Source: Bacteriovorax sp. Seq25_V
GTDB lineage: Bacteria; Bdellovibrionota; Bacteriovoracia; Bacteriovoracales; Bacteriovoracaceae
Length of the DNA stretch: 64,000 nt
Assembly (NCBI RefSeq): GCF_000447795.1
Contig: NZ_AUNI01000019.1
Coordinates: 124,001 to 188,000 of the forward strand
Direction of reading: 5' to 3'
Shown: in pieces, positions 47,925-63,599 of the stretch
Layout: every line of letters starts with the position of its first letter
Numbering within the stretch: position 1 is the first letter of the stretch
Made by a program: the position numbers and the translations under genes
The notes under the pieces: generated by a model
Seen by the model: the letters and a program-made list of their open reading frames with translations, nothing else
Databases searched by the model: none
What the model was told of the DNA's origin: nothing

Positions 47925-49520
47925 TTATTTAAAATCACTATTCTTAAAGAACTGAACATCTGGGAACTTCTCTTGAACAAGCTTGAGGTCCCATTCACTT
48001 CTTACAATAAAACATGGTCTCTCTTTATTATCGTAAGCAATATTTGAGGAGTTCTTACTTAAAAAGGTGTCCATTTCGCGTTCATTTGTAAATTTAAGCC
48101 ACCTTACGGCCTGGAAAGGGAAAGGCTCATATTCCCCACGAACCCCATATTCATCTTCAAGTCTTCTTTTAACAACTTCAAACTGAAGCATACCAACAGC
48201 ACCAAGAATTTTCTCATTTGTTGAGCTTCTTTTAAAGAGCTGAACTGTTCCCTCTTCTGAAAGTTGTTGAAGGCCTTTATCAAGTTGCTTAGCTTTCATT
48301 GGGTCTTTTAATAAAACCTTTTGAAAGATCTCAGGAGCAAAACACGGAATTCCTGTGAAAGTAATTTTTTCCCCCTCTGAGAAAGTGTCACCAATTTGAA
48401 ATTTTCCAGTGTCATGAATACCGATAATATCCCCCGGAAGAGCATACTCTGTAATTTCTCTGTCCTGTGCTTGGAAGATTAGTGGTGAGGCGACTTTAAT
48501 TTCTTTTTCTGTTCTTGTGTGAAAGATCTTTTGTCCTCTTTCAAATCGGCCAGAACAAACACGCATGAAAGCTACACGGTCACGGTGTTTCTTGTCCATA
48601 TTCGCTTGTATCTTAAAGATAAAGCCTGTGAATTTATCTTCAGTTGGTAGAAGTTTTCTGGTCTGCGCATCTTCGTTGTATGGATAAAGCCTTACTTCCC
48701 TCGATGCTGGTCCCGGAGCCGCTTTGGCAAACATATCCAGTGTTTCTTTAACGCCAAAATTGTTAAGAGCTGAACCAAAGTAGACAGGAGTCATAATTCC
48801 CGCAAGAAATTCCTCTTCGTCAAACTCAGGCATAAGCTCAGCGATCATATCAAGATCATTTCTAAGCTTTTCCATTAAAGCAGGGCCAATATACTTATTA
48901 AGTTTTTCATCATCGAGGTTAGAAGCATCAATAATAGTTGGTTTGAAAGGATCATTTGTTTCTTTAAAAGACATGATCTTCTTTGTTTTAAGATCATAAA
49001 CACCTTTGAAGTCAACTCCACTTCCAATTGGCCATGTCATCGGAACGCACTGAATTGAGAGAATACTCTCAATATTATCGATGAGCTCAAATGGATCAAG
49101 AGCATCACGGTCGTACTTGTTCATAAATGTGATAATTGGAGTATCACGCATACGACAAACTTCCATAAGTTTAATTGTTTGTTCCTCAACACCCTTGGCC
49201 GAGTCGATCATCATGAGTACACTTTCAACAGCTGTAAGTGTTCGGTAAGTATCTTCAGAGAAGTCCTTGTGTCCCGGAGTGTCGAGAAGGTGCATTGCTC
49301 TTTCTTCGTAAGGAAAAGACATAACTGAAGATGAAATCGAGATTCCTCTCTCTTTTTCCATTTCCATCCAGTCAGATTTAGCATAGTTTCCATGCTTACT
49401 TTTAACCATCCCGGTTTCTCTAATAACCTGTCCAAACCACAGGAGCTTTTCTGTCATTGTTGTCTTACCAGCATCCGGGTGGGAGATGATCGCAAATGTT
49501 GCGCGTTTTGCATTATCCAT
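47925..49520 (-). CDS. prfC: Peptide chain release factor 3
   Basis: The 531-residue GTPase recycles RF1/RF2 after termination. G1 is SHPDAGKTT, G3 DTPGHKDF and G4 NKYD; domains II and III follow with the RF3-specific segments PMTWPIGSG and FGSALNNFGV. Length is typical. An AAGGA ribosome site lies upstream. Confidence 0.96.
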   Translation of the reverse strand: MDNAKRATFAIISHPDAGKTTMTEKLLWFGQVIRETGMVKSKHGNYAKSDWMEMEKERGISISSSVMSFPYEERAMHLLDTPGHKDFSEDTYRTLTAVESVLMMIDSAKGVEEQTIKLMEVCRMRDTPIITFMNKYDRDALDPFELIDNIESILSIQCVPMTWPIGSGVDFKGVYDLKTKKIMSFKETNDPFKPTIIDASNLDDEKLNKYIGPALMEKLRNDLDMIAELMPEFDEEEFLAGIMTPVYFGSALNNFGVKETLDMFAKAAPGPASREVRLYPYNEDAQTRKLLPTEDKFTGFIFKIQANMDKKHRDRVAFMRVCSGRFERGQKIFHTRTEKEIKVASPLIFQAQDREITEYALPGDIIGIHDTGKFQIGDTFSEGEKITFTGIPCFAPEIFQKVLLKDPMKAKQLDKGLQQLSEEGTVQLFKRSSTNEKILGAVGMLQFEVVKRRLEDEYGVRGEYEPFPFQAVRWLKFTNEREMDTFLSKNSSNIAYDNKERPCFIVRSEWDLKLVQEKFPDVQFFKNSDFK

Positions 49521-49590
49521 ATCTAAATCCTTATTTTTAACTTTGAAAAAAAATACTCTATGTAAAATTTACGGCCCAAATAAACTATTG

Positions 49591-49619
49591 TTGTCACCTT
49601 ATTTGAGCAGTTATATAAA
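49591..49619 (+). promoter_or_regulatory. Sigma-70 promoter of a candidate small RNA
   Basis: TTGTCA (49591-49596), 17 bases and TATAAA (49614-49619), predicting a start at about 49627. No plus-strand coding region follows. Confidence 0.65.
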
Positions 49620-49626
49620 TCGCTAA

Positions 49627-49757
49627 ATTCGTAGTTCGGAATGGGAAAGGCAGTACAAGTTGTTGTTGTGTTTGTTCTTTGTTCCCCGATTTCGTGTTAG
49701 TTTGTGTTGTGATTTCCTCGGACGTTTTTGTACGTTTCTCATTCCTAACTACGTCTC
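49627..49757 (+). ncRNA. Candidate structured small RNA, 6S-like rod
   Basis: Directly after a good promoter, 49630-49648 pairs with 49735-49753 (17 Watson-Crick pairs, one G-U, one mismatch), followed after a small internal bulge by GTAC/GTAC. The interior is G/U-rich and has a possible CCGA/TCGG closing pair. A long rod with an open centre resembles 6S RNA in outline, although ~130 bases is short for that family. The 3' end reaches within a few bases of the gcvP stop. No clear terminator T-run is seen. Confidence 0.5.
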
Positions 49758-49760
49758 TTC

Positions 49761-52760
49761 TTACAATCCTTTATTTGCCTCTAAAATCTTTGCCATAATT
49801 TCCTTGTTAGATAATCCTCTCAGTTGTTTTGGAGAAATAATATCTGCTGGAAGCTTTGGAAGTTCATTAATCTTACTAGCAAAACATAGGTTTTTATTGG
49901 CCCAAACTTCATCAACTTTTTTAATTGGTGTGAAGTGAGGAGTTGTTGTACAAACCTGTGGCATTTCGAAAATAATGTCTCTAATTGTCTCAACGACTTC
50001 TGCGAAATCATCAAGCTCTGCTTTTGAGAATGATTCAGTTGGTTCAATCATTAGACCAAATACTTCTGGGAATGCAACTGTTGGAGCGTGAAGGCCAAAA
50101 TCAAGGAATAACTTTCCAAGTTTTGCTACTGCCTGAGCCTTTGGAGTTCCACCTTTTGCAAGTGACTCAAACATCTCATTACTTGGAGTAATGATAAATT
50201 CGTGCATTCTTGGAGTCTCATCCGCACCAGCTGGAAGAGTTGGAAAAGATTTTCTAAGTCTTTGGTAGAGGTATCTTGCACTAAGTACAGATACTGCCGA
50301 CATTTTCTTAACGCCTTCTTCTCCAAGTGCCTTGATATAAGTATAAGCTCTTACTTTGTGAGCAAAGTTACCACCATGACGGTGAAATTCTCCAATTGAT
50401 TTCTCTGCTTTGTAAGTTTTAAAAGTTCCATTGTTATCTTTCTCAATCAGAACACCCGGTAGGAAAGGAATAAGTTTTGCACTTACTGCAACGATCGCGT
50501 CACCCGGACCACCTCCACCGTGTGGAATAGTCCAAGTCTTGTGAAGATTGTTATGAACGGCATCAACACCAAGTTTTCCAAGATCAATATGGCCAGCAAT
50601 TGCATTCATATTGGCCCCATCCATGTAAACGAGTCCGTCTACACTATGGATAAGCTCAGCGATATATTGAAACTTTTCTTCAAATACACCTGATGTATTT
50701 GGATTTGTAATCATGATACCTGCTACACGCTCACCATCTTCTTTGATTACTTTTTCAAGTTGCTCAAGATTTACTTGTCCTCTTTCGTCAGCATCAATTG
50801 TGACAATACCAACAAGTTTTCCATCAACTTTCTTCGTCTCATATCCTGCAGTCGTTGCCGTCGCAGGGTTTGTTCCGTGAGCTGATCTTGGGATAATGAT
50901 AAGGTTCTTCGTCGCCGCATTACCTTTATCTTCGTGATAGGCCTGAAATAATTTAAGACCAACAAGTTCGCCTTGCGCTCCTGCTACTGGTTGTCCTGTT
51001 ACACCTGGAAGGCCTGTGATCTTTTTAAAGTCTTCTTGGATTTCATAAAGAACTTCTAATGATCCTTGGACATACTTCTCTGGTAGATCTGGGTGCGCCA
51101 TTGTGAACTTAGGAAGACCTGCTGCCCAGTCATTGATGTATGGATTGTATTTCATTGTACATGAACCAAGCGGGTAGATCGCATCATCAGGTGATACGTT
51201 TAGTTCGCTAAGTTTTGTGTAGAATGCTTTTAGTTCATCAAAAGAAAATTTCTTAAGCCCACTTGCTGTGTGCTGAACAAATACTTCTGGAAGTTCTGGA
51301 ATATCAAACTCAGAATCATTTGCTTTGAAGTTATTTCTAAAAAGATCAATAAGCTTAGAAAGATCTTCGTCTGAGTGAATATCAGAGAAAGAAATCTTAA
51401 GAAGATTCTTATCAATACCATAGCGATTAGAGATATTTTTTCCTGCAACAAGATTAAAATTATTATTAATTAAAAGTTCGATATTGTTTTTAACTTCAAG
51501 AACAACTTCATTATAAAAAGGAGCTTCAAAAGCAAGAGTTACACCTTCAAGGCCTTGGATATTTTCAAGGAATTTAATTGCAAATTCTCTTGATGTTTTA
51601 ATCTTTGAACTGAGGCCTTCATCTCCGTGAGCAAGAAGTGATGCTCCAGCTGCTGTCGCAATAAATGATTGGTTAGAGCAGATATTTGATGTCGCTTTCT
51701 CTCTTCTTATATGTTGCTCACGAGTAGAAAGAACGATTGCTAAGCACTCTTTTCCGTCAGCGTCGATTGCCTTCCCAATATATCTTCCGGCCGTTGCTCT
51801 GATATCTGTTTTATTTGTTTCGTTGAATCTAATTCCAAAGATACCAAGCCCTGGTCCCCCAAAGTTAGCATCAAGACAAAGGTGTTGTCCTTCAGCTACA
51901 AACATTGTTGTACCTGTTTTATTAGAACCAAATTCACTTGGTCTTTGGAGACCATCTTTTGCCATCAGGATAGGATCGATAACAGCAATTGAACTTAGTG
52001 CATATTTATTAGCGATATCTGTTAGTTCATTGACGTCTTCCAGAAGTCCAAGTCCGTTTACCTGGTTAAATGCTAGCGCACAAACGCCCTCTGTTGCTGA
52101 AAGAAGCGCTTCAAGAGCATCGATATCTGTGAGACCACTTTCTTTACAAATTGGAGCGTAAATCACCTCAAGGTCAGTGTGCTTAACCATTGTATTTAAA
52201 ACGGCCTTGTCGCTTGGGTAAATTGAATCACAAACAACAACTTTATTTTTATTCTTATGTAGTCTTTGTGCTGTTTTAAGAGCTTCAAAAAGACAAGTTG
52301 ATCTTTCATATAAAGAAGCATTGATGGCCTCAAAACCAGTTAGTGCAGAGATACTACTTGCGTAGATCCAAAGTGTATGGAGAGTTCCTTGTGATCTTTC
52401 TGGTTGATATGGCGTATAAGCCGTTGTCAGTCCACGTAAGTTACATACAAATGGAACGATTGGGTCTTGCTTAAATTGTGGCAGACCATCCCCCAAGAAA
52501 TTTAGTGGGATATTATTTTTGTCAGCAGTTTTTTCTACTAGGGCAATTAGTTCATCATATGAAGGAGAATTATCTAATCCTAACTTTCCATTGAATCGTA
52601 CATTACTATCAATATGATCAAATAATTGATCGAGTGAATCTAGTTTAATTGTTTCGAGCATAGAAGAAATATCTTTGTCATCTGCCGCGATATAGAATTG
52701 ATTTAACTCACGTGGTAAATCTTTTGGATTATATCCAAGTTTTGATTGATAATCTGTCAT
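49761..52760 (-). CDS. gcvP: Glycine dehydrogenase (decarboxylating), P protein
   Basis: The 999-residue single-chain P protein carries both halves: an N-terminal catalytically dead PLP domain and a C-terminal domain with the PLP lysine in HNNLHKTWTIPHGGGGPG. It decarboxylates glycine and passes the aminomethyl group to GcvH. Length is slightly over the usual 950. The gcvT and gcvH genes are not adjacent here. The ribosome site is CGGAG. Confidence 0.95.
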   Translation of the reverse strand: MTDYQSKLGYNPKDLPRELNQFYIAADDKDISSMLETIKLDSLDQLFDHIDSNVRFNGKLGLDNSPSYDELIALVEKTADKNNIPLNFLGDGLPQFKQDPIVPFVCNLRGLTTAYTPYQPERSQGTLHTLWIYASSISALTGFEAINASLYERSTCLFEALKTAQRLHKNKNKVVVCDSIYPSDKAVLNTMVKHTDLEVIYAPICKESGLTDIDALEALLSATEGVCALAFNQVNGLGLLEDVNELTDIANKYALSSIAVIDPILMAKDGLQRPSEFGSNKTGTTMFVAEGQHLCLDANFGGPGLGIFGIRFNETNKTDIRATAGRYIGKAIDADGKECLAIVLSTREQHIRREKATSNICSNQSFIATAAGASLLAHGDEGLSSKIKTSREFAIKFLENIQGLEGVTLAFEAPFYNEVVLEVKNNIELLINNNFNLVAGKNISNRYGIDKNLLKISFSDIHSDEDLSKLIDLFRNNFKANDSEFDIPELPEVFVQHTASGLKKFSFDELKAFYTKLSELNVSPDDAIYPLGSCTMKYNPYINDWAAGLPKFTMAHPDLPEKYVQGSLEVLYEIQEDFKKITGLPGVTGQPVAGAQGELVGLKLFQAYHEDKGNAATKNLIIIPRSAHGTNPATATTAGYETKKVDGKLVGIVTIDADERGQVNLEQLEKVIKEDGERVAGIMITNPNTSGVFEEKFQYIAELIHSVDGLVYMDGANMNAIAGHIDLGKLGVDAVHNNLHKTWTIPHGGGGPGDAIVAVSAKLIPFLPGVLIEKDNNGTFKTYKAEKSIGEFHRHGGNFAHKVRAYTYIKALGEEGVKKMSAVSVLSARYLYQRLRKSFPTLPAGADETPRMHEFIITPSNEMFESLAKGGTPKAQAVAKLGKLFLDFGLHAPTVAFPEVFGLMIEPTESFSKAELDDFAEVVETIRDIIFEMPQVCTTTPHFTPIKKVDEVWANKNLCFASKINELPKLPADIISPKQLRGLSNKEIMAKILEANKGL

Positions 52761-52835: not shown

Positions 52836-53594
52836 ATGACACAACGACCAAATACTATATTTCTTAAAAATGCTGATGATTTGTCTAGCAAGGACTTTGA
52901 GGAGCTTGCTTCACTTGGTCGTGAACATGGTGTTGATTTAGAAATATCTTCTGACGCAAAACTCTATTTTAAAGATGGCCTACTCTACTTACAGGAAGGT
53001 GGTGCAAGCTTCACTCTAAAATGGGAGGAGGAGCTTCAGGATCATCTAAAACGCAAGTATGCAATAACAAAAGAACCGCTGGCCAAGGCACTCGGGATTA
53101 AAGGTGGAAGTGAGAGAGTCGTGTGTGACTGCTCTTTGGGCACTGGAAAAGACGCAATGCTAATCCTTTCTTTTGGCGCAAAAATTATAGCGTTTGAAAG
53201 AAATCCTCTTGTTTTCATGCTGGCCCTTGATGCGTTAAGACGTGCCAAGAATCATACCGAGCTATGTACATATTTCAATAAAATTGAGTTGCGCTACGGA
53301 GTCGCTGCTAATAATTTCAGTGAACTTGAAAAGGTCGAGACATTTTATTTTGATCCGATGTATCCAGAAAAGAAGAAGAGCTCATCGCTACCGCGCAAAG
53401 AAATGCAAGTTTTTAAAAAGGTTGTTGGTGCCGATGATGACTTTCAGCTTCAGTTAGAAAGTCTGTGTAAGACAGGAAAGAAGGTTGTGTTGAAGAGACC
53501 TTTAAAGTCTGAAGTGATCCTTAGGCCATCTGCGAGTTTTCCTGGTAAGACAACTCGCTATGATCTCTATTTTATGCCGCTTTCTTGTCGCTAG
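52836..53594 (+). CDS. rsmJ: 16S rRNA (guanine-1516-N2) methyltransferase RsmJ-like
   Basis: The 252-residue product matches the RsmJ (YhiQ) pattern: AITKEPLAKALGIKGG, motif I CDCSLGTGKDAMLILSFG, then AFERNPLVFMLA, and the catalytic-type block YFDPMYPEKKKSS with RKEMQVFKKVVGADDD. It methylates the 2-amino group of G1516. Its 3' end overlaps the convergent PilZ gene by 23 bases. Confidence 0.9.
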   Translation: MTQRPNTIFLKNADDLSSKDFEELASLGREHGVDLEISSDAKLYFKDGLLYLQEGGASFTLKWEEELQDHLKRKYAITKEPLAKALGIKGGSERVVCDCSLGTGKDAMLILSFGAKIIAFERNPLVFMLALDALRRAKNHTELCTYFNKIELRYGVAANNFSELEKVETFYFDPMYPEKKKSSSLPRKEMQVFKKVVGADDDFQLQLESLCKTGKKVVLKRPLKSEVILRPSASFPGKTTRYDLYFMPLSCR

Positions 53595-62753: not shown

Positions 62754-63599
62754 TTAGAATAGTGTGTAGTAAAGAGTTGTCCCTACAGCACCTTTGTTCC
62801 ACCACTGGTGTACACCTGTTGCGTAGCCGTCATTTGATTGAACAATCCATGATTCAAAGTATAGAGATACTGAAAGAGCACCGATTGAGTAGTCTGCAGA
62901 GGCAGATAGAAGAATATTGTCGCTTCCTTGAGTGTTAGAAGCAGCATCCTTAACATTGTCTTTGTAGCTATACCAAATGAATGATGGAGTTACAGAGAAG
63001 TTATCAGTGAATGAATAAGTTGGAACAACACCGATTGAAAGAAGCTTATCTCTCTTGAAGTCACCAGAGTTTCTATTGTACTGAAGAATATATGGATTAG
63101 ATCCAAGAGTAAATTTTCCCCAAGTTTTAGAGAATGAAGTATATAGGTAGTGGTAACTATCGTAACCTGTCTTTCTTGCTTCATCATTAACAAAGTAGTT
63201 TCTCAAAAGGAAACTCATGTTCACGCCATGCTTTTCTTCTGTAAGAATTTTCGATCTTGTAAATCTAAACTCAGTGTTGCTTAGTTCTGTATGGTAGTCA
63301 CCTTGACCTTTTTGAGTTTTGTCATGTGAAGTTCTAAACATAGGCTTAAGAGTCAGTTTATGATATTTGTCGATTTTGTAGTTTAGGTAAACATAGTTAT
63401 CTGAAGTAAAACCATCAGCACCTTTTGAATCAATATAAGTATCATTTAACCAGCTTACTGAAACTGGAGATTCTTTAATTTTGTTCCAAAGATTTGATAA
63501 TGTCGTCGTTGATGTCGACGGGCTTGTTGTCGTTGCAGTATCAGCTGCTGTCGCGCCTACTGCTGCTACTAGTGAAAGTGCTAGTAAAAGTCTCTTCAT
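62754..63599 (-). CDS. Outer-membrane beta-barrel protein
   Basis: The 281-residue product has a signal peptide (about 1-19, GATAAD junction), a Thr/Ser-rich linker and then alternating hydrophobic/polar strands rich in Tyr, Phe and Trp. It ends in LYYTLF, with the C-terminal Phe expected for BAM substrates. About 12 strands are plausible. It could be a porin-like or adhesion protein; no specific family is recognised. The AAGGGG/AAGGA leader and the strong terminator suggest high expression. Confidence 0.8.
   Translation of the reverse strand: MKRLLLALSLVAAVGATAADTATTTSPSTSTTTLSNLWNKIKESPVSVSWLNDTYIDSKGADGFTSDNYVYLNYKIDKYHKLTLKPMFRTSHDKTQKGQGDYHTELSNTEFRFTRSKILTEEKHGVNMSFLLRNYFVNDEARKTGYDSYHYLYTSFSKTWGKFTLGSNPYILQYNRNSGDFKRDKLLSIGVVPTYSFTDNFSVTPSFIWYSYKDNVKDAASNTQGSDNILLSASADYSIGALSVSLYFESWIVQSNDGYATGVHQWWNKGAVGTTLYYTLF

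Follow-up and report, generated by a model that had tools for sequence, protein, structure and literature searches.

A probable small RNA gene with a covarying stem and a conserved loop in one genus of marine predatory bacteria

What does the gap between prfC and gcvP in Bacteriovorax sp. Seq25_V encode, if anything? The window analysed here is a stretch of 64,000 nucleotides from this genome, and an earlier sequence-only reading of it had placed a plus-strand small RNA gene in that gap, driven by its own promoter, closed by an inverted repeat and perhaps related to 6S RNA. Comparison with relatives in the same genus (Halobacteriovorax/Bacteriovorax) makes it very probable that a real, previously unlisted small RNA gene lies there (Table 1). 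The best reading of the whole, to which we give a probability of about one half, is that of an Hfq-independent, activator-controlled regulatory RNA that acts via its loop, most likely by pairing with mRNAs. Small RNAs of marine predatory bacteria appear to be close to unstudied: a full-text literature search for Halobacteriovorax together with “small RNA” gave no match, and further literature listings, in their titles and beginnings of abstracts, likewise held none on the subject.

Table 1. Features of the locus, its neighbours and a possible target, with positions in the window
Feature	Position	Strand	Basis or remark
prfC	47925-49520	−	divergent neighbour, restricted to the window, G004 and G005
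Candidate activator site, imperfect palindrome TGTAA-N3-TTACg	49561-49573	+	centre spacing and perfect forms elsewhere
−35 element TTGTCA	49591-49596	+	sequence
−10 element TATAAA	49614-49619	+	sequence; TATAA kept in five of five genomes
Small RNA rod, 124 nt	49630-49753	+	blastn relatives, fold z −3.65, covariation, covariance model; predicted transcript start ~49626
5′ arm of 19-bp closing stem	49630-49648	+	covariation
G/U-rich loop block 1, GTTGTGTTTGTTCTTTGTTCCCCGATTTCGTGT	49665-49697	+	GTTCTTTGTTCCCC invariant in five of five sequences
Loop block 2, TTTGTGTTGTGATTTCC	49701-49717	+	five-sequence alignment
3′ arm of 19-bp closing stem	49735-49753	+	covariation
gcvP	49761-52760	−	convergent neighbour; gene name from the sequence-only reading; neighbour conserved in relatives
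Possible target, 281-aa exported beta-barrel-like protein, CACGAAGGGGACAA just before start codon	62754-63599	−	best duplex of 199 start regions

The rod, its strand and its promoter

The sequence-only reading had described a 19-position imperfect inverted repeat, and its two arms do form standard pairs at 18 of 19 positions in the window, the exception being a C-T. Folded alone, the rod reaches −32.8 kcal/mol, where shuffles average −22.15 and 0 of 200 are as good. Alignment of the five sequences, that of the window and those of its four relatives in the genus, leaves 93.7% of the closing-stem cells paired, compared with 42-47% when one arm is slid by 1-3 columns. Because the stem was drawn from these same five, the paired percentage looks better beside the slid control than it should; the count of double changes is less affected, with 13 of the 19 pairs changed on both sides and 0-2 in the slid controls. 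The covariation score of the closing stem is 0.605 versus 0.299 for shuffles, and none of 500 shuffles reaches it. The ends of the RNA are predicted to form a stem of at least 19 bp, whose sequence changes while its pairing is kept.

Which strand is transcribed? Five stem cells pair as G-U or U-G when read on the plus strand but would mismatch as A-C on the other. An A-C that minus-strand pairing could mend appears in none of the six unpaired stem cells. The five G-U and U-G cells thus identify the plus strand as the one that is read. They contradict a minus-strand RNA, whose fold is also less stable overall (one of the five is not significant, z −1.78), and this candidate was rejected. So was a coding gene, since no reading frame runs through all five species without stops or frame shifts, and there are indels of 1-2 bases between the loop blocks. 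The long inverted repeat between genes might instead suggest a DNA element that is not transcribed at all, such as mobile-element ends, an attachment site or a REP-like repeat, but the G-U pairs favour one RNA strand, the −10, −35 and palindrome keep a fixed spacing, and the sequence is found at the same place in five species. It is also single-copy in its own genome (the next best blastn match is 21 bases), on which ground a mobile or repeated element was rejected, and this helps to make a DNA element of any of these kinds extremely improbable.

The proposed promoter, TTGTCA-N17-TATAAA, is borne out by the positions of its elements, with a spacer of 17 and the predicted start given in Table 1. 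The −35 element reads TTGTCA in the window, G004 and G001, TTGTAA in G003 and TTACAC in G005, and the −10 and −35 region is conserved by sequence in all five genomes. A consensus promoter scan left this promoter off its list because it demands T as the final −10 base. The RNA is predicted to have its own conserved sigma-70-type promoter. At the other end, G003 carries a hairpin with a T run directly 3′ of the rod, and G005 a 3′-side hairpin terminator that was read by eye and not listed by the terminator scan; no hairpin terminator is seen after the rod in the window, G004 or G001. Together, the covariation, the conserved promoter and the terminators of these two relatives support the plus-strand small RNA gene that had been proposed.

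Distribution and neighbouring genes

A blastn search of 38 genomes clearly detects the sequence in four genomes besides its own (E 1.5e-30 to 1.4e-7; next best E 0.02), every one of them from this genus. The window sequence and its four relatives were made into a covariance model, which on 129 family genomes returns five matches at 114-139 bits, with noise from 27 bits down. All lie within the genus, in five of its six genomes, which places relatives in four of the five other genus genomes; the remaining 123 family genomes give none above noise (next best 27 bits). The sixth genus genome, G002, is an 87% complete assembly with neither the RNA nor a match to gcvP. Scanning a sequence collection with the loop pattern recovered three contigs, from Halobacteriovorax ARS37, Bacteriovorax DB6_IX and Bacteriovorax MedPE-SWde, and no viral contigs; of these, DB6_IX is an isolate. 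A 14-mer match in G124 was rejected as a relative, being unrelated sequence without the rod. Covariation across Bacteriovoracales had been put forward as a check; the stem covaries at the 13 of 19 pairs in five sequences noted above, and the RNA is found in one genus only. To judge by sequence comparison, the five form a new RNA family that spans the genus and is of a known kind, the structured bacterial small RNA.

The rod ends 7 bases short of the gcvP stop codon (49761-49763), close against it as the sequence-only reading had it, and gcvP also adjoins the RNA in G001, G003 and G004. This proximity, along with the joint absence of gcvP and the RNA from the incomplete G002, is what would be expected of a cis element, either antisense to the gcvP 3′ end or a bidirectional end-of-gene structure. 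Against such an element, the rod has its own conserved promoter, pointing toward gcvP; its loop is the most conserved part, not the gcvP side; terminators separate gcvP from the rod in G003 and G005; and in G005 a whole 144-aa exported-protein gene comes between the two. A cis element is very unlikely, there is no sign of the RNA serving gcvP, and the effect on gcvP mRNA that had been raised as a possibility is not supported. The intervening gene of G005 (L004:972-1406, plus strand) occurs in this species only. In the window, gcvP also adjoins a gene for a putative SAM-dependent methyltransferase (52836-53594, plus strand; PF04445). On the promoter side of the RNA the neighbour differs in G001 and G003, where prfC is not found, and the RNA can therefore be regarded as an independent unit.

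Upstream palindrome, conserved loop and possible partners

An imperfect palindrome stands upstream of the promoter, with its centre exactly 47 bases ahead of the first −10 base in all five genomes, a fixed place ~59 bases upstream of the predicted start. TGTAA-N3-TTACA is its best form, and G001 and G003 have the perfect palindrome TTGTAA-N3-TTACA. The RNA is probably regulated through this site. The motif TTGTAANNNTTACA recurs in the genus, where 18 of its 25 distinct sites avoid long ORFs; the reversed pattern, used as control, does so at 3 of 22 (Fisher p 9e-5). These counts reduce 38 matches to 30 loci and then to the 25 distinct sites, and the 18 include the site of the RNA gene itself in G003 (L087), another read as 23S rRNA (L076) and a third beside sequence read as a transposase (L064). 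At 9 of 17 promoters, which we picked by hand from the motif sites, a −10-like hexamer begins 36 or 37 bases past the motif centre, a distance one helical turn shorter than at the RNA gene. A motif that is mostly non-genic and has a hexamer at 36-37 bases fits an activator site, and TTGTAA-N3-TTACA(A) appears to be where an unnamed activator binds.

Across the genus, TTGTAA-N3-TTACA(A) often lies 50-75 bases upstream of the start codons of exported proteins. By a crude rule, exported proteins make up 10 of 19 beside the motif against 175 of 547, an excess that is not significant (p 0.08). Pfam named few of the neighbouring genes: a trypsin-like peptidase and an endonuclease I, which are among the exported proteins, and an alanine-dehydrogenase-like enzyme. 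The motif stands upstream of orthologues of this alanine-dehydrogenase/PNT-like enzyme in three species (L059 in G003, L066 in G004 and L074 in G001). Sites in the RNA's own genome are at G000:C9:171543, C9:363921, C9:452020, C10:149227, C15:4370, C15:50993 and C21:153198.

Sequence conservation within the rod is highest in the G/U-rich loop, not in the stem. The segment GTTCTTTGTTCCCC is identical in all five sequences, and the surrounding block is mostly so too; the second block reads TTCGTGTTGTGATTCCC in G001, G004 and G005 and similarly in the window and G003. A stem free to vary as long as it pairs, next to a loop that is fixed, suggests that the loop is the working part. In the mechanism we propose, an activator shared with other genes would turn the RNA on, and the stem would protect the RNA ends and hold out the G/U-rich loop with its two nearly unchanging blocks. 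The loop would act in trans without Hfq, a protein that was not found in this genome (PF17209; 5 of 14 control genomes positive). The balance of evidence leans toward action in trans through the loop.

Could the partners be mRNAs? Within the loop, UUGUUCCCC would most likely base-pair with purine-rich ribosome-binding sites. Among 199 start regions of the same genome, one predicted duplex is the best by far (−36.8 kcal/mol; mean −17.8). It joins the loop to the start codon and ribosome site of the exported beta-barrel-like protein in Table 1, which is encoded 13 kb from the RNA in the same window. The protein ends in phenylalanine, and neither Pfam nor solved-structure searches named a family for it; it has distant syntenic relatives in G001 (L159) and G003 (L170). 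The pairing is not kept in these relatives, which rank 6 of 180 and 38 of 219. Shuffled loop cores equal or beat the best partner in 15 of 200 cases by energy in its own genome (8 of 200 by z), in 166 of 200 in G001 and in 154 of 200 in G003, so that in the latter two genomes the best loop partners amount to nothing beyond those of shuffled cores. A test fixed beforehand on 1.2 Mb of fresh sequence covered three genomes and showed strong duplexes to be in excess in none of them, and near-complements of the loop in its own genome are slightly more numerous than those of the reversed pattern (51 versus 38). In G003, a 431-aa exported protein (L179:16436-17731, minus strand) has CCACGGAAGGGGACAA just before its start codon. 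This element, found after the fact, nearly matches the one ahead of the 62754-63599 protein, and distant homologues of the L179 protein are without it.

The absence of a conserved mRNA partner would also suit an RNA whose loop is a platform for an RNA-binding protein, which it would sequester or scaffold in the manner of a Csr/Rsm sponge or of a second RNA-polymerase decoy. A long contiguous invariant sequence in an unpaired loop, and the similarity of the two loop blocks to each other (GUUGUG...UUCCC(C)), speak for this platform. On the other side, any such partner would be hypothetical, the genome has no TROVE/Ro protein, and repeated GGA is absent by eye from the loop of all five sequences, so it is not an obvious Csr sponge. 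Such a protein-holding RNA is possible, at clearly less than even odds. Since the pairing is not conserved, shuffled cores do as well at times in the RNA's own genome and mostly in G001 and G003, and the fresh-sequence test was negative, the 62754-63599 protein as target is a lead only, and pairing is favoured by a small margin, with protein-holding close behind. That the loop pairs with mRNAs rather than holding a protein is accordingly a tentative preference, a little short of an even bet.

Taking mRNA pairing further, one could imagine a genus-specific family in which a rod-displayed, Hfq-free loop, co-activated with exported enzymes by the unnamed activator, silences outer-membrane proteins at the level of the ribosome site during prey digestion, with the RNA and the 62754-63599 protein as the candidate pair. 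This full scenario is unlikely. If it were true, the RNA would be the founding member of such a family. The locus offers a concrete RNA gene shared across species, with a promoter that can be measured and a candidate activator motif. Through this one gene, control of the predator's switch between hunting and digesting becomes testable, and the conserved control region makes a role in predation testable as well.

Relation to known small RNAs

The rod has several features in common with 6S RNA (RF00013): it is an independent RNA gene with its own promoter, its ends pair to close a rod, its centre is open and its size is of the same order. Features of this sort would suit an RNA that captures RNA polymerase by imitating an open promoter, whether 6S itself or a paralogue of it, and a short 6S-like RNA is what had been suggested for this gap. 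But Rfam gives no match in the window at gathering score and none in 49400-49900 even at E up to 10, RF00013 included, and the genome's canonical 6S RNA is elsewhere (G000:C21:357272-357445, minus strand; L022:1501-1674; RF00013, 74 bits), on which grounds membership of the 6S family was rejected. The rod differs, too, in having a conserved G/U-rich loop sequence and no conserved apical stem: the five-sequence alignment has no covarying helix beyond the rod's closed end, and so no bubble of defined size, and it lends no support to inner helices, as the pairs added in the loop by RNAalifold vary little or hardly. The 6S-like suggestion does not stand up to these results, and an RNA that works as 6S does has only a slim chance of being what this locus encodes.

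A second comparison is with the Hfq-independent small RNAs that act through a loop, such as Helicobacter RepG and the staphylococcal UCCC-motif RNAs. They share with the present RNA a C/U-rich loop sequence able to meet G-rich ribosome sites, and here too no Hfq was found. The likeness is one of description, the target being a candidate only, and the loop here is much longer, G/U-rich and set on a long rod. Y RNAs and YrlA, which associate with Ro60/Rsr, resemble it in their paired ends and large pyrimidine-rich loop. They differ in that the stem sequence is not conserved here and no TROVE-domain protein (PF05731) was found in this genome (1 of 14 control genomes positive), for want of which a Ro/Y RNA was rejected.

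A comparison by lifestyle is with Bdellovibrio bacteriovorus HD100. Its merRNA, one of the attack-phase small RNAs described in PMC3627812, is 445 nt long and holds a c-di-GMP riboswitch; compared by that description, the present RNA is unlike it, with a rod of 124 nt and no Rfam riboswitch in the window. The same source describes attack-phase small RNAs of HD100 that are intergenic, structured and 98-655 nt long (PMC3627812), and to these, on that description, the RNA reported here is alike in being an intergenic, structured small RNA of a predatory bacterium from the same broad group.
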